Below are positions 3,701-28,833 of a DNA stretch of 28,833 nucleotides, in pieces. The notes below the pieces were generated by a model. The model ran no database searches. It was not told where the DNA came from and was given only the letters and a program-made list of their open reading frames with translations. A program made the position numbers and the translations under genes. The stretch spans positions 1-28,833 of the forward strand of contig NZJA01000154.1 in NCBI GenBank assembly GCA_002691835.1. The letters are read 5' to 3'. The DNA is from Planctomycetota bacterium (GTDB taxonomy: Bacteria; Planctomycetota; UBA8108; UBA1146). Each line of letters opens with the position of its first letter. Within the stretch, counting starts at the first letter, position 1.

Positions 3701-5563
3701 TCAGGAATCTTTCTCGGCTTTTGCTTTGCGCTTTTCGCGGCGGCGGTCCGCTTCTTTGAGAAGATGTTTGCGCACGCGGATGCTCTCGGGAGTGATCTCG
3801 ACCAGCTCCCCTTCGACAACGAGCTCGAGAGCCTCTTCCAGTTTTAGTTTCTTAAGGGGACGCACGCTGCTGTTGTCGTCTTTTCCAGCAGCTCGGACAT
3901 TGGTCAGCTTCTTGGTGCGCACGATATTGACTTCCAGGTCATTGTCGCGGTTGTGTTCACCGACGATTTGGCCTTCGTAGACCTGCTCTCCAGGTTCGAC
4001 AAAGAAAACGCCGCGATCAAAGAGAGCATCGAGGCTGTAAGGGGTGGTCTGACCACTCTCTACAGCGATCAGTGAACCCGAGTTACGTCGCGGAATTGAT
4101 CCCGTCTGAGGTCCATGCTCAAGATAACTGTGATGCATGATGACACGACCTGCAGTTGCTGTAAGAAGTTTGGTTCGCAGGCCAATCAGACCCCGAGCGG
4201 GAATCTTGAATTCCATGTGAATCATATCGCTGGCGGATCGGGTGCTCATATCCATCATCTCTGCACGGCGTTCACCCACGAGCATCATCACAGGTCCTTG
4301 TGCGTCGATAGGGCAATCCATGACAAGATGCTCAAAGGGCTCGTGCCACTTTCCATCGACTTGACGCTCAATCACCCGAGGCATACCCACACACATCTCG
4401 AAGCCTTCTCGGCGCATGTTTTCGAGGAGGATTCCCAAATGCATGAGACCGCGGCCCGAGACCATAAACTCTTCCGGTCGCTCACCCTGTTCGACTTTGA
4501 GGGCCACGTTGCGTTCGAGTTCCTTGTCGAGGCGGTCCTTCAGCTGTCTTGAGGTGACGAACTTGCCCTCGCGACCAACGAAGGGCCCATCATTTACACG
4601 GAAGGTCATGTGAAGGGTCGGTTCGTCTACAAGAATGGCGGGCAGGGCCGTCGGCTTTTTCAAGCAGGCGATCGTATCGCCAATCTCGATGTTGTCGATG
4701 CCGACGACAGCACAAATATTTCCTGCCTCAGCTTCTTTTACTTTTTTACGCCCAAGGCCTTCAAACAAATGAAGTTCTTGAATTCGCGCTTTACGAGGTG
4801 CGGCATTCGGGCTCAAGACCTGGATTTCTTCGTGTGCAGAGACTTTTCCTGCAGCAATACGCCCGATTGCAATACGTCCTATGAATTCAGAGTGATCGAG
4901 GGTGCTGACTCGCAGTTGAAGAGGTGCATCGAGGGTGACGGGAGGAGATGGTACGTGCTCGATGATGGCATCGAAGATTCTCTGAAGGTCATAGCGTTCA
5001 CCACCGAGCTCTTCTTCGCACCATCCATCGCGACCGGAACAGTAGAAGATGGGGAAGTCGAGAGTTTCATCATCGGCTTCCAGGCTAACGAGGAGGTCGA
5101 AAACTTCATCGACGACTTCTGAGGGTCGCCCATCTGGACGATCCGCCTTATTGATAATGACCATCGGCTTGAGTTTGTTTTCGAGTGCCTTTTGCAGAAC
5201 GAAACGAGTCTGTGGCATGGGCCCATCGAAGGAATCGACCAAAAGAAGAACACCATCTGCCATCGACAGAACGCGTTCAACTTCGCCTCCGAAGTCGGCG
5301 TGACCAGGGGTATCGATGACGTTAATACGGTAGGTGATCTCTTCTCGCTGAACTTCTATGGCGCAATTCTTAGCGAGAATCGTGATGCCACGTTCTCTTT
5401 CCAGAGGATTACTGTCAAAGATCAGGCCGTGTTGACCTCCCGCGAGGCGATCTAATTCTTCGTTACGAAACATCCCTGACTGATAGAGCAGGCGGTCGAC
5501 CAAAGTAGTTTTTCCATGGTCGACGTGGGCGATGATCGCCACGTTGCGTATTTGTTCCTGCAT
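3701..5563 (-). CDS. typA: Ribosome-associated GTPase TypA/BipA
   Basis: A translational GTPase of the EF-G/LepA superfamily that binds the 70S ribosome and acts in ribosome assembly and stress or low-temperature adaptation. With the ATG at 5563 the protein starts MQEQIRNVAIIAHVDHGKTT and is 620 residues, close to the usual 600-615. G1 is AHVDHGKT at 12-19; G3 is DTPGHADFGGE; G4 is NKADRP; G5 is SGRDG. Later segments such as GRGLMHLGILLENMRREGFE and the LGLIGLRT-like stretch (ARGLIGLRTKLLT) match the TypA domain III/V and C-terminal regions. The frame is open further upstream to a TTG at 5626, which would add 21 residues without family similarity and with no good ribosome site, so ATG 5563 is preferred. 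The C-terminus has a short basic tail (RRREKRKAKAEKDS). It diverges from the DUF2256 gene across a 203-bp gap. Confidence 0.95.
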   Translation of the reverse strand: MQEQIRNVAIIAHVDHGKTTLVDRLLYQSGMFRNEELDRLAGGQHGLIFDSNPLERERGITILAKNCAIEVQREEITYRINVIDTPGHADFGGEVERVLSMADGVLLLVDSFDGPMPQTRFVLQKALENKLKPMVIINKADRPDGRPSEVVDEVFDLLVSLEADDETLDFPIFYCSGRDGWCEEELGGERYDLQRIFDAIIEHVPSPPVTLDAPLQLRVSTLDHSEFIGRIAIGRIAAGKVSAHEEIQVLSPNAAPRKARIQELHLFEGLGRKKVKEAEAGNICAVVGIDNIEIGDTIACLKKPTALPAILVDEPTLHMTFRVNDGPFVGREGKFVTSRQLKDRLDKELERNVALKVEQGERPEEFMVSGRGLMHLGILLENMRREGFEMCVGMPRVIERQVDGKWHEPFEHLVMDCPIDAQGPVMMLVGERRAEMMDMSTRSASDMIHMEFKIPARGLIGLRTKLLTATAGRVIMHHSYLEHGPQTGSIPRRNSGSLIAVESGQTTPYSLDALFDRGVFFVEPGEQVYEGQIVGEHNRDNDLEVNIVRTKKLTNVRAAGKDDNSSVRPLKKLKLEEALELVVEGELVEITPESIRVRKHLLKEADRRREKRKAKAEKDS

Positions 5564-5766
5564 ATCAAAGTGCTCGATTCGAAAAGATTCGGGTTGCGCC
5601 AGATTTACAAGCTCGGCGTCACGCAAATCTTACTGTTCTGATACGTCTGGGGAAGCAAACCGGGAAATCATGGTCATTCTTGAACAGGTAGAAATTCGGT
5701 CATCCATCATGAAAGGCCCTCAGGGATCTCTCAGCAGGAAATGCCAATAGGAGTTATTCTGGATTC

Positions 5767-19978: not shown

Positions 19979-20121
19979 ACCTTGCAGTTGACCCTTGGGG
20001 CTAATACCATCGTAAGTTGATTTATTATCAGGGTTTGAGATATCAAAACATCGACGGCAAGAGAGAGTAGCAATAGGTGCTCGCATTTAATCGGTCGATC
20101 ATTCGAGAGGGATGCAGAGTG

Positions 20122-22782
20122 ATGAAAAAAATCTTAAGGTCACCACGGCAATTTTTGGGTCGACTACTAGGCGTCCTTTTATTGCTGGGCCTTTTTTCGG
20201 GCCCACTCTTGGCTCAGGCCGCCTTTTCTAATGCGAATCCGGATGCTGATCTTGTTGCTGCTGAACTTGGGGCTACCCAAGCAGATCTTCATAAGCTCGA
20301 GTTTTCACAGTTTGCGGATGCTGAATTGGTGTTCGAGGTAGAGCTTCCGAGCTACGGGCCGGTGACTTTAAGTCTTCGCCCATATTCTGTCCGCAGTGAT
20401 CGCTTTCAGGTATTGGTTGATGACGGGTCGGCTCTGCTGCCGTATCCCGCTCCTCCGGTGTTGACGAAGCGTGGATCGGTGCTTGAGATACCGGGATCCA
20501 AGGTCTCGGGCAGTTTTGATGGAGCTTCGTTCACCGGAATTATCCGCACGGGTGATGAAGTTTACTCCATCGTTCCGTTATCCGAGGTGGGTTACAACGG
20601 CAGCTCTGATTGGCATGCATTGATCGACGAAAAGGATGTCATCGATAACGGTGAGTTGTGTGGAACCAATACCCTGGGCAGCTCAGGCAGAGTAAATCCG
20701 GGTACCTCGACACCCTCATTTGGAACGACCTTTTTCCTGACGGAAGTGGGGATCGATTCCGATTTCGAGTTTTACCAACAGAACAACAGCAGTGTCGGCA
20801 ATACGGTTGCTGACATTGAAAATGTCATGAACTCGGTCAGTGAAGTTTATGAAGATCCTTCGATCAGCATTACTTTTGAAATCTCAGTTCTCATTGTCAG
20901 AACGACCAGCGCAGATCCTTATGGAACGATTTCAGGTGCAGGCCAGCTCCTGAACGCATTTGGGAATAATTGGGGAACTGCGCCGGAAAGTCAGATTCAG
21001 AGAGATGTGGCGCATTTCTTTACTGGGATCAATATCGATGGAGGCACGATTGGCATCGCTGCCCTTTCAGATATCTGCACCTCCAATGCTTATGGACTGT
21101 CGCAGTCCCGTTTCAGCTCTATTTTCAGCAGACGTATTGCGTTAACCACCCATGAGCTTGGGCATAACTGGTCAGGGACCCATTGCGACAGCCAAGGCTC
21201 ATGTCGAATCATGTGTTCGGTTCTCAGTGGCTGTGATGGAATCAATCCGCTTTCATTCTCAGCTGCTCCAACTGGCCAGATTGTGAATTATCGAAACTCC
21301 AGAAATTGCCTTTCCAGTAAACCGCCGGCTTTGGCTTTACCATTTTTCGAAGAGTTCCCCGCAGGCTCAGTGGATAGCACTCGGTGGATCTATAATGAAG
21401 GCGGGGTCGTCAGCAGTCAGGGGAATGGTGAACCCAGTGGTCCCAGCTCGCTACAGTTGAACAGGAGTGGCGGGGGGATCTATCAGTACGACGAGATTCG
21501 TACCAATGCCATGCTGTTGAGTAACACCAACCCGGTATTACAATTTTACACCAATCATTCCGGCGTTGAATCAGGAGAAGAATTGATCGTCGAGTATCTG
21601 ACAGCTTCTCTGTCATGGATAGAGCTCGACCGCATCGTTTCCACGGGTGGATCTCCTTCGGCGTACACGGTTCAAACCTACACTTTGCCTCCAAACGCTC
21701 GACACAATAACTTCCGTTTACGCTTCATCACCAACACCAATGAGAACAATGACAATTGGTATATTGACGATGTCAGTGTTTCAGACGGACCCCCTCCAAC
21801 TTTGGATCCCCCGCTGATTCTGGGAATCAATCCACCGGACGGATCAACTGCAGGGGGAGCTTTCGTGACCATCACGGGTCAAAACTTCACCTCTGATGTG
21901 GTCGTGCTTCTCGGAAGTTCATTGATTGATAACTTGTCCTACGTCAGTGCCACCCAGCTTGTGGGTAATGTTCCAGCAGCAACGGTACCAGGGTTTGTGG
22001 CAGTGATCGCCAGCCAGGCTTCGGGAAGCAGTTTGTTGGATCCCGGGTTCCTGTATACCGAAGAGTTCATCGTCCACGACAATGGTGAAGGCTCTCCGGG
22101 CGGCGAAGTCGCTGTCACTGTCAGCGCAGATCACGATACGGTTTTGTCCGGGTACTCATTGGCAGTAGATTTCGATGCTAACGAAGTTGTGGTTTCCTCG
22201 ATCACCGCAGAAAACAGCGTGGCGGTGGGTGCTGATTTCTTCGAGCCTTCCTTTAATAATGACGCGACAACAAGTGGAGGGTGGTGGACTTTGGGAGCGA
22301 TCCTGAGTTTCACCGGCACGACGACCATTCCGCCTTCGGATCAGACAGTTCTTGCGACTGCGAATTATTTCATTCAACCGACGGCGACTGTAGGGTCTCA
22401 AATTTTCTTATCGATGGTGAATGGTGTCGGGCCAGCAAGCCCGCCGTCAGAAAACTTGCTCGTCGATCCGGGAGGAAATGCTGTACCACCGCTGTTAGAA
22501 GCGGGCTTCATTATCGTTGGGGCCTCTTCATTTGTTCGAGGCGACGGAAACGGTGACCTGACGGTGAATGTTGCAGACGCAGTATTTATCCTTAATTTCC
22601 TCTTTTCAAATCTTCCGTCTGATTGCCTGGACTCGATGGATACGAATGATGATGGGGGAAATGATATTGCGGATGCAGTTGCAGTTCTTCAGTTCCTGTT
22701 TTCATCAGGAACTGAACCGCCTCCGCCATTCCCGAATCCAGGACCCGATCCGACAACAGATGCCCTGGACTGCGATTTTTAA
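20122..22782 (+). CDS. Secreted metzincin (reprolysin-like) protease with IPT, cohesin-like and dockerin modules
   Basis: 886 residues from ATG 20122 (MKKILRSPRQ), directly followed by a signal peptide ending LLAQA; a GTG at 20077 in frame is less likely. Residues about 35-155 resemble an M12B propeptide. The catalytic domain (about 205-395) has HELGHNWSGTH at 344-354: zinc ligands His344, His348, His354 and base Glu345, followed by CRIMC as probable Met-turn. The usual Gly at motif position 8 is Ser, with Gly at 9. Then come a beta-sandwich (about 400-560, NDNWYIDDVSV), an IPT/TIG domain (about 563-650), a cohesin-like domain (about 650-800) and dockerin-like loops GDGNGDLTVNVADAVFILNF and DTNDDGGNDIADAVAVLQFL. 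It probably degrades extracellular protein and is held in surface assemblies. A terminator follows directly. Confidence 0.88.
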   Translation: MKKILRSPRQFLGRLLGVLLLLGLFSGPLLAQAAFSNANPDADLVAAELGATQADLHKLEFSQFADAELVFEVELPSYGPVTLSLRPYSVRSDRFQVLVDDGSALLPYPAPPVLTKRGSVLEIPGSKVSGSFDGASFTGIIRTGDEVYSIVPLSEVGYNGSSDWHALIDEKDVIDNGELCGTNTLGSSGRVNPGTSTPSFGTTFFLTEVGIDSDFEFYQQNNSSVGNTVADIENVMNSVSEVYEDPSISITFEISVLIVRTTSADPYGTISGAGQLLNAFGNNWGTAPESQIQRDVAHFFTGINIDGGTIGIAALSDICTSNAYGLSQSRFSSIFSRRIALTTHELGHNWSGTHCDSQGSCRIMCSVLSGCDGINPLSFSAAPTGQIVNYRNSRNCLSSKPPALALPFFEEFPAGSVDSTRWIYNEGGVVSSQGNGEPSGPSSLQLNRSGGGIYQYDEIRTNAMLLSNTNPVLQFYTNHSGVESGEELIVEYLTASLSWIELDRIVSTGGSPSAYTVQTYTLPPNARHNNFRLRFITNTNENNDNWYIDDVSVSDGPPPTLDPPLILGINPPDGSTAGGAFVTITGQNFTSDVVVLLGSSLIDNLSYVSATQLVGNVPAATVPGFVAVIASQASGSSLLDPGFLYTEEFIVHDNGEGSPGGEVAVTVSADHDTVLSGYSLAVDFDANEVVVSSITAENSVAVGADFFEPSFNNDATTSGGWWTLGAILSFTGTTTIPPSDQTVLATANYFIQPTATVGSQIFLSMVNGVGPASPPSENLLVDPGGNAVPPLLEAGFIIVGASSFVRGDGNGDLTVNVADAVFILNFLFSNLPSDCLDSMDTNDDGGNDIADAVAVLQFLFSSGTEPPPPFPNPGPDPTTDALDCDF

Positions 22783-22848: not shown

Positions 22849-24246
22849 TTAGCGTTGGGATCCCTCTATTTGTTTCAACGATGAGAGAAGATCGCCTTCA
22901 CACTGCTCTATCGCCTCACAGAGGAAGGCAAGGGATACCGATGCCTGTTGTGCTCGCGCAAGAAGTTGAAGCAGAACCCTTTGGCCTTCACCGCCAAATT
23001 GCCTGCGAATACTTCTCCAGGTTTTATCTTGAGCAGCAGTCAGGGAAAGCCTGCCCATCGAAAGTTCCAGTTGGTCCAGAGAGGCACCGACATTGGCAAG
23101 GGGCATCGACATAATGGAAGACTCGATGGGGATGACACTATCGATCTGTTTTTGTTCCTGAATCTGAAAACCCGCCCACACGGATTGAAGCAGTTTTTCA
23201 AGGGGGGAATCACTTTCTCCCTGATCCGGTGTGAGAAGTTTTGGTTGGCCTCCCTGTTCGATGTGTTCGCGGTCAAACTCAATACCACGGACCCCACTCT
23301 TGGAAAGTTCAGTGATTCTGTGATCAATCGGGTCGAGGACTTTTTCGATCAGTCCGTTTAGAGAACGGGCACCATCGCCAAGTCCTTGAGCTTGTTCTGC
23401 TATGGCCTCCAGGGCCGATTCCGAAAAGCTGAGTTCGATACCATGGGCTTTCCAGAAGGTCTTTTTCTGTGAGAGAACCCCGTTATCCATTTCTTTCAGC
23501 AGATGAACAAAGTCAGAAGTGGTCAATTGATTGAGCAACGAAACCTTGTTGAAGCGGGAAGCCAGCTCATCGCTAAGTCCAAGGGTGACCAAATCCTCTT
23601 TGCGGATAAGGTCACGGATATGAGTGGAGTCACTGGGCTCTTCATCGATTTGGAACCCAATACGTGAACCTTCATCGAGGCGCTCTTCGACAGCGGTCTG
23701 GATCCATGGGAAAGCGCCACAACAGATGAAGAGCAGTCCTGCTGTATCCAGTTGACTCTGGGGTTCTTCCTTGTGACGAAGCACAACGCCGTCCATCAGG
23801 GTCACGAGAGCTTCCTGTACGGCAAGCCCAGGATCTCCCGGAGAAGAAGAAGTTCGCAGGCAATGATCGAGTCGGTCGATCAAGACAATCCCGTGTTGCG
23901 CAAGGTTCAGATCTCCTCCGGCTCTGTGAAGCAGCGCATCTGTGATTCCCTGAAGTGCTTGCCCTGAGAGAGCCGGTTGAACTAACGAAGAAGCATCCAC
24001 TTGGATCCAGGGGACTCCCAGAAATTCGGCTGTTTTTTGGACGAGGAATGTTTTTCCAACGCCCTCTGGTCCGGCGAGTAGCAGGTGTTGGCCGAGTGGG
24101 CGTGAATCCCTGAACAGATGATGATTCAGGTAATGATTGTAGACTGCGACGGAGATTTCACGTTTGGCATGCTCTTGGCCACGAACATGAAGCTCCAGAA
24201 AGTTCCAGATTTCCATGGGGTCCGGGAATGTGGATCGATCAGACAT
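22849..24246 (-). CDS. Divergent ClpX-like AAA+ protein with altered Walker B and pore loop
   Basis: 465 residues from ATG 24246 (MSDRSTFPDP), chosen for AAGGAAGG six to seven bases upstream. It follows ClpX through the AAA+ core: VYNHYLNHHLF, Walker A GPEGVGKT (59-66), QEALVTLMDG, LLFICCGAF, the ClpP-docking tripeptide in GSRIGF (196-198), arginine-finger region DELASRF, and sensor-2 GARSL. Differences from ClpX: no N-terminal Cys4 zinc domain; Walker B reads IVLIDRLD (D124-R125 instead of D-E); the pore loop expected as GYVG is ALSG (92-95); and there is a C-terminal extension of about 120 residues (helical, Gln/Leu-rich). ATP binding is likely; ATP hydrolysis and substrate pulling are doubtful. 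It may be a regulatory or scaffold partner of Clp proteins. It is divergent from the decarboxylase gene. Confidence 0.8.
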   Translation of the reverse strand: MSDRSTFPDPMEIWNFLELHVRGQEHAKREISVAVYNHYLNHHLFRDSRPLGQHLLLAGPEGVGKTFLVQKTAEFLGVPWIQVDASSLVQPALSGQALQGITDALLHRAGGDLNLAQHGIVLIDRLDHCLRTSSSPGDPGLAVQEALVTLMDGVVLRHKEEPQSQLDTAGLLFICCGAFPWIQTAVEERLDEGSRIGFQIDEEPSDSTHIRDLIRKEDLVTLGLSDELASRFNKVSLLNQLTTSDFVHLLKEMDNGVLSQKKTFWKAHGIELSFSESALEAIAEQAQGLGDGARSLNGLIEKVLDPIDHRITELSKSGVRGIEFDREHIEQGGQPKLLTPDQGESDSPLEKLLQSVWAGFQIQEQKQIDSVIPIESSIMSMPLANVGASLDQLELSMGRLSLTAAQDKTWRSIRRQFGGEGQRVLLQLLARAQQASVSLAFLCEAIEQCEGDLLSSLKQIEGSQR

Positions 24247-24417
24247 GAGAACCTTCCTTCTGTTTTCACACATGGCAGTCTAGCGAATCATCACTCCCAG
24301 AGCATCGATTGTTCGAATGATCCTGCGGGTTCCGGTCTTTTTACAAAATCTTCATAGCGGGCGTTTCTTCTCTGGATTCCAATCTGAAGGGCTGAAGAGA
24401 TAGAAAAAGAGGCTCGA

Positions 24418-25854: not shown

Positions 25855-25881
25855 CTTAAGGATCTTGCTTAAGGTTTTTTT
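25855..25881 (+). terminator. Probable short terminator after the decarboxylase
   Basis: CTTAAG (25855-25860), a seven-base loop and CTTAAG (25868-25873), followed by G and seven T's. The stem is only six bases and AT-rich, so strength is uncertain. It overlaps the stop codon of the convergent M16-like gene. Confidence 0.45.
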
Positions 25882-27194
25882 GTCGGAGAGACACTGGCAG
25901 GAATGACAATTCCCGTGACAGCTTTTTCCGGCAAGAGGTATTCTTCGCCTAATGATTTCATTTGTGATTCCACGTCTCGCCCGAAGATATTGATCAATTT
26001 CCGCTCATCGACGTCGTGAATCCGTTGAACCATTAACGCTTTCGCTGCGGGTACCGGGTTGTACATCGATGTCTCATCATGGACTCGTGAAATCCCTAAA
26101 AGCCCACCAAAGGTTTTTCGAGCGTATTGCATGTCGCTCATCTCAGCGGACGACTGTAGTGCGAAATTTATGGCAGCATCGAGGCGAGCTTTCGCCGCAA
26201 GCAAAGCGGTTTTAATATCAGTTTGCTCGGTGGGAATGGGAACGATCAGCGTGATCAGCTCGGGTTCAATCGTCGGATTCCATTGAACCGTCGAAGGATC
26301 AGAATCAAGAATGCGGACTATTCGCGGGATCAGGATTCCCAGGGCGAGAGATTCTTTGGTACCCGGAGGGGGCACTCTCCAGCTGCGAACGATGGCACCA
26401 GACATTCCGGGCAGGTTTTTTTTGACGCCGATTTCTCCATACTGAGCCGGCTCCGGAGTCACTTTCGCAATCGGAGTCCCCGCCGCGATTTTCCCTAACT
26501 TTTTTCTGGCGATTTCAAGAGTGGGATCCGGGTCGTGAGGGCCAATGATGGCGATATGAATATTGACGGGAGTAAAAGTTTCAGATCGGAACTCTTCAAG
26601 GTTCTGCAGGTTGATTCCGCCCAACTGATAGCGTCCTCTTGGCCCAGATTTTTTTGGAACAAGCCTGTCGTGAACCCGGTCTTCAAGACCTGGAACGAGA
26701 CTGGTGAGTTGTTTCTTTTGATCTGCGAGCAAGTCTCCACGAACCCGGCCAATGAGCGAAGCGTCGGTCAGTGAAAATTCAAAACGATCGACGATTTTAT
26801 TCAGGTGATCGGCAACATCTTTTGGAGGAACTTTTTCGATCCACCAGGTTCTCTGACCCCCGACCTGGATTTCACCTTCGGAAGAAGGGGTTCTGTAAGA
26901 CCTTCGCAGAACTTCTGCCAATAGATGTGTTCTTCCGGATGTACCCGGTGGGTCATGAAGTGAACCAACACTCCAGCTCGTGATAATGATGGCTCTCTGA
27001 TCCGACTCTGGAAGAAAAGATGGCAAGGGCAGTGAACCAAAATCCATGCCGTTGTCGAGGGGGTACCAGACCTGCCGCGGAGATTGGGCGCAAACGTTCT
27101 TGGTTGAAAAGAACGAGACGGACAGACAGCCGATCAATAAAAAAAACATCAACAGGGCCTGAAGCCGGTGCCGATTCCCCAACTCGATTTCCAT
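25869..27194 (-). CDS. Secreted M16-peptidase-like protein without the zinc-binding motif
   Basis: 441 residues from ATG 27194, with a GAGAGGAAC site about ten bases upstream. A signal peptide ends near NVCAQ (residue 37); LIGC inside it could also be a lipobox. Residues 65-105 (RAIIITSWSVGSLHDPPGTS, GRTHLLAEVLRR) match the start of M16 (insulinase/processing peptidase) domains, GSxxDPPGxxGxxHLLEHxL, but the HxxEH zinc motif is changed: His90 is kept while Glu and the second His are Ala93 and Glu94. The later NLEEFRSETFTPVNIHIAII matches the strand that follows the M16 helical part. Paired M16 proteins often have one inactive partner, but no active one is in this window. It is likely periplasmic or surface and non-proteolytic. 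The 5' leader abuts a duplicated 3' end of the neighbouring Clp gene. Confidence 0.65.
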   Translation of the reverse strand: MEIELGNRHRLQALLMFFLLIGCLSVSFFSTKNVCAQSPRQVWYPLDNGMDFGSLPLPSFLPESDQRAIIITSWSVGSLHDPPGTSGRTHLLAEVLRRSYRTPSSEGEIQVGGQRTWWIEKVPPKDVADHLNKIVDRFEFSLTDASLIGRVRGDLLADQKKQLTSLVPGLEDRVHDRLVPKKSGPRGRYQLGGINLQNLEEFRSETFTPVNIHIAIIGPHDPDPTLEIARKKLGKIAAGTPIAKVTPEPAQYGEIGVKKNLPGMSGAIVRSWRVPPPGTKESLALGILIPRIVRILDSDPSTVQWNPTIEPELITLIVPIPTEQTDIKTALLAAKARLDAAINFALQSSAEMSDMQYARKTFGGLLGISRVHDETSMYNPVPAAKALMVQRIHDVDERKLINIFGRDVESQMKSLGEEYLLPEKAVTGIVIPASVSPTKKP

Positions 27195-27378: not shown

Positions 27379-27556
27379 TGCCGTTTCTTCCCTGCACTTC
27401 CATCTGACGAAAAAACAACGCCAAGATCAACCGCAGTTCAGATCAGGAAATGATCAGCGACTCTCCGAGGTGTGGCGTGTGGAAGCCCAACTGGCCACCA
27501 GATCAAAATTACCATCCAGGGCTTCTTCCGGTTGGGTGAATCGCCAGCCCTGAACC
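27379..27556 (-). repeat. Tandem duplication, copy B (3' end of the Clp-RF2 gene plus flank)
   Basis: It contains the last 34 or so codons of the Clp-RF2 fusion, its TGA at 27456-27454, and about 75 bp of 3' flank. The offset to copy A is 181 bp at the left end and 174 bp at the right, so several small indels separate the copies. Confidence 0.8.
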
Positions 27557-28833
27557 AGGTTGACCAATTTCGGGTCAGGATTCAGGCGGTAACGCTGCAC
27601 GATTTCATCCCTGCGGGGAGAATCTTCCAGCAATTTTTGCGCATGACGGACACGCTCATTGCGGTCTCCAGGGGGCAAGCCGAGAGGCTGCGGGGCGATG
27701 GAGATGCGGGTGTGGACTTTGCGATCCTTGTGCTGGGCCTCGGGGTTCTCGAGTTCATGCAATCCACCCAGTGGGTGGAGGAATCGCCAGGAAGCGAAGC
27801 CGGTCACTGCAACGATCCATTCGCCGTCCGGTGTGTGGGTCAGCTCCTCCAAATGCATGTTTCGCTTGTCCGCCCAATCAACGATCATCTTTTTCAATCG
27901 GGAAGACCAGGCGACCTGTTCCTCCTGTGATTCCCGGTCGCGCTGAACCGGCTGAATTCTCAGGTAGGCATCCTGGGGAAGGTCATCGTCGAGGACTTCC
28001 ACCGCATGGTCGAGAAGGTAGATCTGCTGAGCGAGCCTCTGAATCAAGGCAGGGGGGTAACTATCCCGGGAGGTTTCCGCATCACCGGAGAGTCGATCGA
28101 GCAGGGATCGGGCTGTTTCGGTTCCGTGGTCGATCCGATCCCGCAACTCGGCACGGGCCAGAACCGGCAGCCTCTGTGGATCGTCCCAGAAGCCGGCAAC
28201 GCCCATACTTTCCATCGCCTTGGCTCGGGCTTCACTCCACTCCACGGATTCGACAAGGCTTTCCAATTTGTCGACCTGCTCGGCCAGTGCCTCGACCTCT
28301 TCCAGGCGCCCGGAACCGCGCATGGCGATGTAGGGGATGAGCAGACGGGGAGATGCCTCGGAGCCTTCCTCCAGTTCGGGGATGGGTACCAACTGTTTTT
28401 CCGCCACTTCCTGTTCGGTGGCATCCGGATCGACAAAGTCGACGACGATCTTGCCCCCTTCTCCGCGGACGAAAAGGAATTGGTCTGCCTGAGGATCATC
28501 GTGGGCGAGCATTTCCCGGGCGATGGGAGTCAGGGCATACTGTTCGACCGCCCGGCGCAGCGGCCGTGCCCCCAGGTCGGCAGTCAGTCCCTGGGTGAGC
28601 AACAGATCGATGGCGGAATCTTCCCACTCCACGGCCCACGGGCGATCCTTGAGACCCCGGCGTGAGAGCACCCGTTTCAGTTCCAGCTTGAGCAGTGCCC
28701 GCTGCTCCGTTCTGGAGAAGGGGCGGAAGGTGACGATCTGGTCGATCCGGTTGAGGAACTCGGGGCGGAAGGTCTCCCTGAGGGCGATTTCGTAGGGGTT
28801 GTAAGACCCTCCGGAACTTTTGAAGCCGAAGGA
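27454..28833 (-). CDS. ClpA/ClpB-type AAA+ unfoldase fused to an RF2-like domain lacking GGQ (5' end outside window)
   Basis: The frame is open at the right edge; 459 C-terminal codons are present (residue 1 is at 28833). Residues 1-135 are the end of an Hsp100 D2 module: YNPYEIALRETFRPEFLNRI, DQIVTFRPFS, sensor-2 LGARPLRRAVEQYALTPIAR. After a linker, residues about 174-445 follow peptide chain release factor 2: FWDDPQR (215-221, the RF2 N-domain signature), DAYLRI and EEQVAWSSRLKKMIVDWADK (288-323, compare RF2 DAxLxIxAGAGGTEAxDWAxML...WAxxRG), GGLHELENP and KVHTRISI (356-378, compare GVHRLVRISPF...RRHTSF), and EEALDGNFDLVASW (436-449, compare QAVLDGDLDxFIEAYL). The GGQ domain is deleted and SPF is absent. 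Release activity is therefore not expected; ribosome binding is possible. The 3' end is tandemly duplicated. Confidence 0.85.
   Translation of the reverse strand, partial: SFGFKSSGGSYNPYEIALRETFRPEFLNRIDQIVTFRPFSRTEQRALLKLELKRVLSRRGLKDRPWAVEWEDSAIDLLLTQGLTADLGARPLRRAVEQYALTPIAREMLAHDDPQADQFLFVRGEGGKIVVDFVDPDATEQEVAEKQLVPIPELEEGSEASPRLLIPYIAMRGSGRLEEVEALAEQVDKLESLVESVEWSEARAKAMESMGVAGFWDDPQRLPVLARAELRDRIDHGTETARSLLDRLSGDAETSRDSYPPALIQRLAQQIYLLDHAVEVLDDDLPQDAYLRIQPVQRDRESQEEQVAWSSRLKKMIVDWADKRNMHLEELTHTPDGEWIVAVTGFASWRFLHPLGGLHELENPEAQHKDRKVHTRISIAPQPLGLPPGDRNERVRHAQKLLEDSPRRDEIVQRYRLNPDPKLVNLVQGWRFTQPEEALDGNFDLVASWASTRHTSESR

Follow-up and report, generated by a model that had tools for sequence, protein, structure and literature searches.

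An RF2-derived C-terminal module on ClpA/ClpC-type Hsp100 ATPases of Planctomycetota and Actinobacteriota

What use would a Hsp100-type ATPase have for the body of release factor 2 (RF2), once that body can neither release a peptide nor read a stop codon? The question is raised by a gene at the edge of a 28,833-nucleotide stretch of DNA (hereafter the window; contig NZJA01000154.1 of assembly GCA_002691835.1) from a Planctomycetota bacterium of the UBA8108/UBA1146 lineage. The 3' part of the gene (27454..28833, minus strand) contributes 459 codons plus a stop, and its reading frame is open at the 5' end because the window stops at that point, the 5' part lying beyond the edge. Judged from sequence comparisons, it is one of the ClpA/ClpC-type Hsp100 ATPases with an RF2-derived C-terminal module, a family conserved in two phyla.

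An RF2-derived module behind an Hsp100 motor

The window protein begins within the second AAA+ module (D2), whose end and small domain occupy residues 1-134 (28432..28833, minus strand, as are all features of this gene) and match PF10431, the ClpB/ClpC D2 end, at residues 42-112 with 42.2 bits. Its first four residues, SFGF (28822..28833), form on position and conservation the [LIVF]GF loop that stands at the ClpP-docking position of ClpA and ClpC. A linker (residues 135-173; 28315..28431), with a predicted local distance difference test score of ~50 at its middle, leads from the D2-small domain to the RF2-like module. This module consists of a helical part like RF2 domain 1 (residues 175-285; 27979..28311), a part like domain 2 (residues 286-382; 27688..27978), a short stretch where RF2 has domain 3 with its GGQ motif (residues 383-410; 27604..27687) and an end like domain 4 that includes QRYR and ALDGNFD (residues 411-452; 27478..27603), all four with approximate boundaries. 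The whole gene is known from close relatives of 1194-1197 residues (L003:4275-7859; also L001 and P0002); the L003 product has 1194 residues, and in L001 the frame runs for 1212 codons from stop to stop; each is 95% identical to the window protein over the tail. Their sources are an uncultured and a Planctomycetia metagenome-assembled genome; two further relatives (L002, L004) are fragments only. The single-frame joining of an Hsp100 D2 end to an RF2-like module, first proposed in a sequence-only reading of this DNA, thus recurs as the same architecture in these relatives.

Several landmarks occur in RF2 order along the window protein, as that reading had described: the FWDDP signature (residues 215-219; 28177..28191), DAYLRI, DWADKR, GGLHEL and ALDGNFD (residues 438-444). 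The MAFFT alignment, for its part, sets the KVHTRI loop in a register other than the pairing with RRHTSF. Matches of single sequences are too weak to decide on homology: the window protein reaches an expectation value (E) of 0.0056 against the prfB family TIGR00020 and 0.34 against RF2 in the PDB, has no PCRF match, and its tail alone has no Pfam match at E <=0.1. Two members of its clade (P0008 and P0010) stay under the curated PCRF cut-off of 24 bits with 20.6 and 20.9 bits, and sister fusions exceed it (58.5, 46, 41.8, 31.5 and 46.4 bits, and 25.5 for P0012). The curated prfB cut-off of 370 bits is not reached, the best fusion seen scoring 138.6 bits.

At the level of families the evidence is strong. 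An hhalign comparison of 18 fusion modules with 20 Planctomycetota RF2s gave a probability of 99.95 (E 6.2e-38) over 306 columns, and the window clade alone (10 sequences) gave 94.0 (E 1.4e-7). As controls, the three groups were compared with their sequences reversed, which gave 0.4, 0.3 and 10.3; shuffling the columns of the window clade 20 times never brought it above 2.5. Both fold and sequence profile place the fusion modules with RF2 domains 1, 2 and 4, and it is the multi-domain arrangement of these, not one subdomain, that is retained. The module is therefore almost certainly homologous to RF2, and the profile scores of L043 (130.5 bits for RF2 against 56.6 and 53.7 for RF1) indicate that it is derived from RF2 and not from RF1. 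Three outcomes that would have undone the proposal, namely a family profile that misses RF2, a fold unlike RF2 domains 1, 2 and 4, and homologues in which the extension is an unrelated coiled coil, did not occur. The description of the module as complete holds for domains 1, 2 and 4; domain 3 is deleted in the window protein.

A census of 392 Planctomycetota genomes, a lower bound that considered matches down to about E 6e-28, found the fusion in at least 38; one (G215) was assigned by frame length alone (1074 codons), and the sequences of the other 37 were read. The long frames in G104 and G391 turned out to encode RF2 with no Hsp100 part, and both were taken out of the count. A second branch lies in Gaiellaceae (Gaiella) of the Actinobacteriota, according to the source names of a few matches. 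A protein search with L043 as query returned only its own record and P0133, candidates probably being picked by shared 5-residue words. When 38 fusions and 19 other Hsp100s are placed in one D2 tree, all fusions fall on one side of a branch with 100/100 support, as expected of one origin, and the proteins without domain 3, except P0133, form a single clade, also at 100/100. P0133 (886 residues) lacks domain 3 yet lies outside that clade, so domain 3 may have been lost twice.

Residues lost and retained in module and motor

Residue counts were taken from 69 fusion modules aligned with 20 RF2s, for which 30 of 119 actinobacterial modules were sampled and 5 long Planctomycetota frames were left out. 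The absence of GGQ and the replacement of the codon-reading SPF loop, both claimed for the window protein from its sequence, extend to the family. The catalytic glutamine is kept in none of the 69 modules, and the letters GGQ occur in 4 of 164, each time away from the catalytic position; LENPEA (residues 361-366; 27736..27753) stands in place of SPF in the window protein, and S, P and F are kept in <=5% of any fusion group with more than two rows. The GGT tip of helix alpha5 and the RRHT residues are kept in <=38%, and the switch loop is shortened. Conservation lies elsewhere: W of FWDDP is found in 69/69 fusions and 20/20 RF2s and F in 68/69 fusions, and the F-W pair, M..W, the G and H of the GxH turn, R-x-Y and the G of LDG are mostly retained, residues that appear to be mostly fold framework. 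Several T, S, V or E positions of RF2, in domains 1, 2 and 4, have become R or K in most fusions, which predicts a rewired, more basic face on the module.

The interval corresponding to domain 3 (measured in 161/164) spans 39 to <80 residues in one set of fusions and 83-120 in another, compared with 128 in RF2, and it is likely from these patterns that GGQ was lost first and domain 3 excised later. Domain 3 is partly reduced in the fusion L113, from genome G009 (its twin L046 has an interval of 83), and the D2 tree puts L113 next to the clade without domain 3, making it a possible intermediate in this loss. A scan of G009 for the RF2 family matched the fusion and neither an ordinary RF2 nor RF1, in a genome that may be incomplete.

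Full-length relatives have two AAA+ modules, a D2-small domain and a ClpA/B/C fold, of which the window holds the D2 end only. The Walker B motif of the first module (D1) is found, under one search range for both groups, in 0/152 fusions and in 19/19 control Hsp100s, and the GYVG pore loop of D2 in 0/164 fusions and in 19/19 other Hsp100s. The family retains the D2 Walker B and, for the most part, the aromatic pore loop of D1. An xGF or xGL tripeptide (x = I, L, V, F or A) is present in D2 of 163/164 fusions; the window clade, with FGF, and three fusions with AG[FL] depart slightly from the [LIV]-G-[FL] docking loop of ClpA and ClpC. No such loop is present in the ClpB-like Hsp100s of the fusion-bearing genomes. 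A ClpP gene was present in 33/33 genomes. On these sequence features, docking of the fusion to ClpP has about an even chance. PADLOC matches to defence systems (DolB, PDC-M37B and others) map to the AAA+ modules, in L043 to the HEAT repeats too, and are read as shared folds, not as defence.

The sequence-only reading had proposed a check for Clp_N and D1 upstream of the window. D1 is present in the full-length relatives, but Clp_N was found neither in four isolated N-terminal parts (L003, L043, L045 and L047; Pfam, E <=1) nor among the Pfam matches listed for 11 full-length fusion proteins. HEAT repeats (PF13646) occur in 4/5 proteins that retain domain 3, one of them below the curated cut-off. 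A strongly hydrophobic segment precedes D1 in 15/16 proteins of the window clade, 99/105 actinobacterial proteins and 3/26 other Planctomycetota proteins, these three lying in the domain-3-less clade. Because domain-3-less relatives mostly carry this segment, the window protein is probably membrane-anchored.

Possible functions of the fusion

These features can be combined into a reading in which the fusion is a ClpP-linked, ribosome-targeted unfoldase. The protein would form a hexamer that docks ClpP, in which D1 grips the substrate and D2 burns ATP. Its RF2-like module would act as a targeting domain that enters or comes close to the A site of stalled ribosomes, or the face that a 50S subunit exposes after splitting, and there would neither read a codon nor cleave a peptide; the unfoldase could then extract or clear the nascent chain and hand it to ClpP, and in the branch of the window the machine would also be anchored in the membrane. 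We hold this overall reading tentatively, at somewhat under even chances, and targeting of the ribosome or a ribosomal subunit by the module, taken as a claim of its own, falls just short of an even chance. That the fusion may recruit an unfoldase to ribosomes had been suggested on the strength of the ribosome-binding domains of RF2; the module and the fusion on which this idea was built are real and conserved, but the step to ribosomes does not follow directly from the presence of those domains, whose contacts are mostly lost.

Indirect support for ribosome targeting comes from the new, conserved basic positions of domains 1, 2 and 4 and from co-occurrence with proteins of ribosome quality control. 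RqcH (PF05833) is encoded in 141 of the 392 Planctomycetota genomes: in 35 of the at least 38 with the fusion (not in G047, G193 and G235) and in 106 of the other 354, a Fisher count that is independent of the rpoB tree. That tree holds 60 of 63 genomes, 30 with and 30 without the fusion, G067 (split gene), G013 (no match) and G040 (fragment) being left out and G061 having a partial rpoB. On it, RqcH was present in 27/30 genomes with the fusion and 11/30 without (Pagel test, p 0.008), and MutS2, counted at E <=1e-90 so that MutS (4e-63 or weaker) was excluded, in 25/30 and 9/30 (p 0.029); the recognised pair RqcH-MutS2 gave p 0.011 on the same tree. The unrelated protease subunit HslV, used as a control, showed 10/30 and 8/30 (p 0.75), and mreB, near-universal at 59/63, was uninformative as a control. 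The Pagel result is a modest one, from draft genomes, a single marker gene, a tree with many weak nodes and three partners. In ArfA-dependent rescue, RF2 works without need of its SPF motif and binds the L11 stalk through domain 1 (PMC5378476), and the fused module might, by analogy, act as RF2 does there.

Several observations weigh against a ribosome-targeted, ClpP-linked unfoldase. The strongest counter-argument is that the RF2 residues contacting the codon, the decoding centre and the peptidyl transferase centre are mostly lost or rare in the fusions, so that an exapted structural domain fits almost as well. SmpB is equally frequent with and without the fusion (30/32 each), 11/30 fusion-free tree genomes carry RqcH, and 3/30 fusion genomes lack it. 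The ~300-residue tail presumably exits D2 on the side that docks ClpP and could block docking. No gene neighbour is common to the whole fusion family, and within the window clade a few recur, in 3-7 loci. A survey of 15,259 genomes reports rqcH and mutS2 in 0/3,213 Actinobacteriota (PMC11633108), so the Gaiellaceae branch is unlikely to depend on RqcH. In ClpA the D2 ring is the principal motor (PMC9663308), and loss of the D2 pore-loop aromatic from this ring argues against ordinary threading.

A plausible alternative, although one we would still consider doubtful, is that a membrane-associated machine of the ClpP type exapted the RF2 fold for substrate binding or as a structural part, ribosome contact being gone and the RF2 origin historical only. 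Retention of framework residues together with loss of most functional ones is what this explanation would predict, and the deletion of domain 3 in the very clade that bears the membrane segment agrees with it; it accounts less well for the preservation of the entire domain 1, 2 and 4 arrangement and for the co-occurrence with RqcH and MutS2. The fusion could instead be a non-threading remodeller that works without ClpP and uses its RF2-like module to break up, by competition, a complex that RF2 normally joins, such as release factor- or RqcH-bound particles. The missing D2 GYVG loop and D1 Walker B would suit such a protein, but the near-invariant xGF/xGL loop, its absence from the ClpB-like Hsp100s of the same genomes and the presence of ClpP in every genome counted make this improbable. 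A fusion of a chaperone with a release factor that is still active, freeing peptides at stalled ribosomes, has only RF2 homology in its favour, and is rendered very improbable by the loss of the catalytic glutamine from all 69 modules aligned, which contradicts it. An artefact of assembly or gene calling, or a chance resemblance, might be suspected where the closest relatives come from metagenome assemblies, but the one-frame architecture across many independent contigs and two phyla and the negative profile controls leave it a negligible chance.

Neighbouring genes, known systems and significance

The fusion lies a few genes from a second atypical Clp ATPase, a divergent ClpX-like AAA+ protein (22852-24273, minus strand; NCBIfam ClpX 205.7 bits against a cut-off of 359) with Walker A GPEGVGKT, an IGF tripeptide and, at the place of the DE of Walker B, IDRLD. 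In 3/7 window-clade loci checked, some of them short, a homologue with 71-81% identity stands near the fusion. Downstream of the fusion lies an M16-family-like protein (25872-27194, minus strand; PF05193, 34.4 bits) with an N-terminal hydrophobic stretch, and its homologues stand beside the fusion in 7/7 window-clade loci checked, in either orientation. The window also encodes the translational GTPase TypA/BipA (3704-5626, minus strand), ~22 kb from the fusion gene, and a reprolysin-type metallopeptidase with a TIG domain (20077-22779, plus strand) that has weak cohesin and dockerin matches below the cut-offs.

Compared with ClpA and ClpC, the fusions differ in having no Clp_N found, no D1 Walker B, no D2 GYVG and an RF2-derived C-terminal module; compared with RF2 (prfB), they differ by the absence of GGQ and SPF, a mostly lost GGTE tip, a shortened switch loop, a deleted or degenerate domain 3 and a position behind an AAA+ motor. 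RFH (prfH) and ArfB are likewise paralogous bacterial descendants of release factors with specialised roles. Unlike the fusions, they retain the catalytic glutamine or GGQ (PMC1586002 and PMC6514570), and section 2.4 of the latter describes neither as joined to an AAA+ ATPase. ClpI of Actinomycetota is also a third double-ring Clp class, with LGF-plus and LGF-minus types, but has intact ATPase modules and an M-domain (PMC10149685, in whose main text 'release factor' has 0 occurrences); the fusions lack the D1 Walker B. Eukaryotic ribosome quality control offers an analogy only, in Vms1/ANKZF1 with Cdc48/p97, where a release-factor-like protein is paired with an AAA+ unfoldase (PMC6514570, a wide-ranging survey of how release factors evolved, from whose main text the word Clp is absent). 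The release-factor fold of that system is unrelated, and its components are separate proteins. Cdc48/p97 belongs to an AAA+ clade other than that of the Hsp100 fusion. By this analogy the fusion might be a single-polypeptide bacterial counterpart of the Cdc48-Vms1 arm, a codon-blind, catalytically dead RF2 that would dock on stalled or split ribosomes while a motor with split labour feeds ClpP, at the membrane in the lineage of the window, a reading we regard as unlikely. No description of a Hsp100-RF2 fusion was found in the literature searched, which lacked most subscription papers, preprints and supplements.

For nascent chains of failed translation, the route to ClpP is so far accounted for chiefly by tags (ssrA, poly-alanine) and by soluble proteases. 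Should the module still be able to find ribosomes, these bacteria would have an unfoldase-protease physically built onto a release-factor body, and the family would offer a direct handle on that route. Even without ribosome binding, it would be a natural experiment in motor design, in which gripping by D1 is seemingly separate from ATP hydrolysis by D2, and a case in which the RF2 body outlives both peptide release and stop-codon reading.
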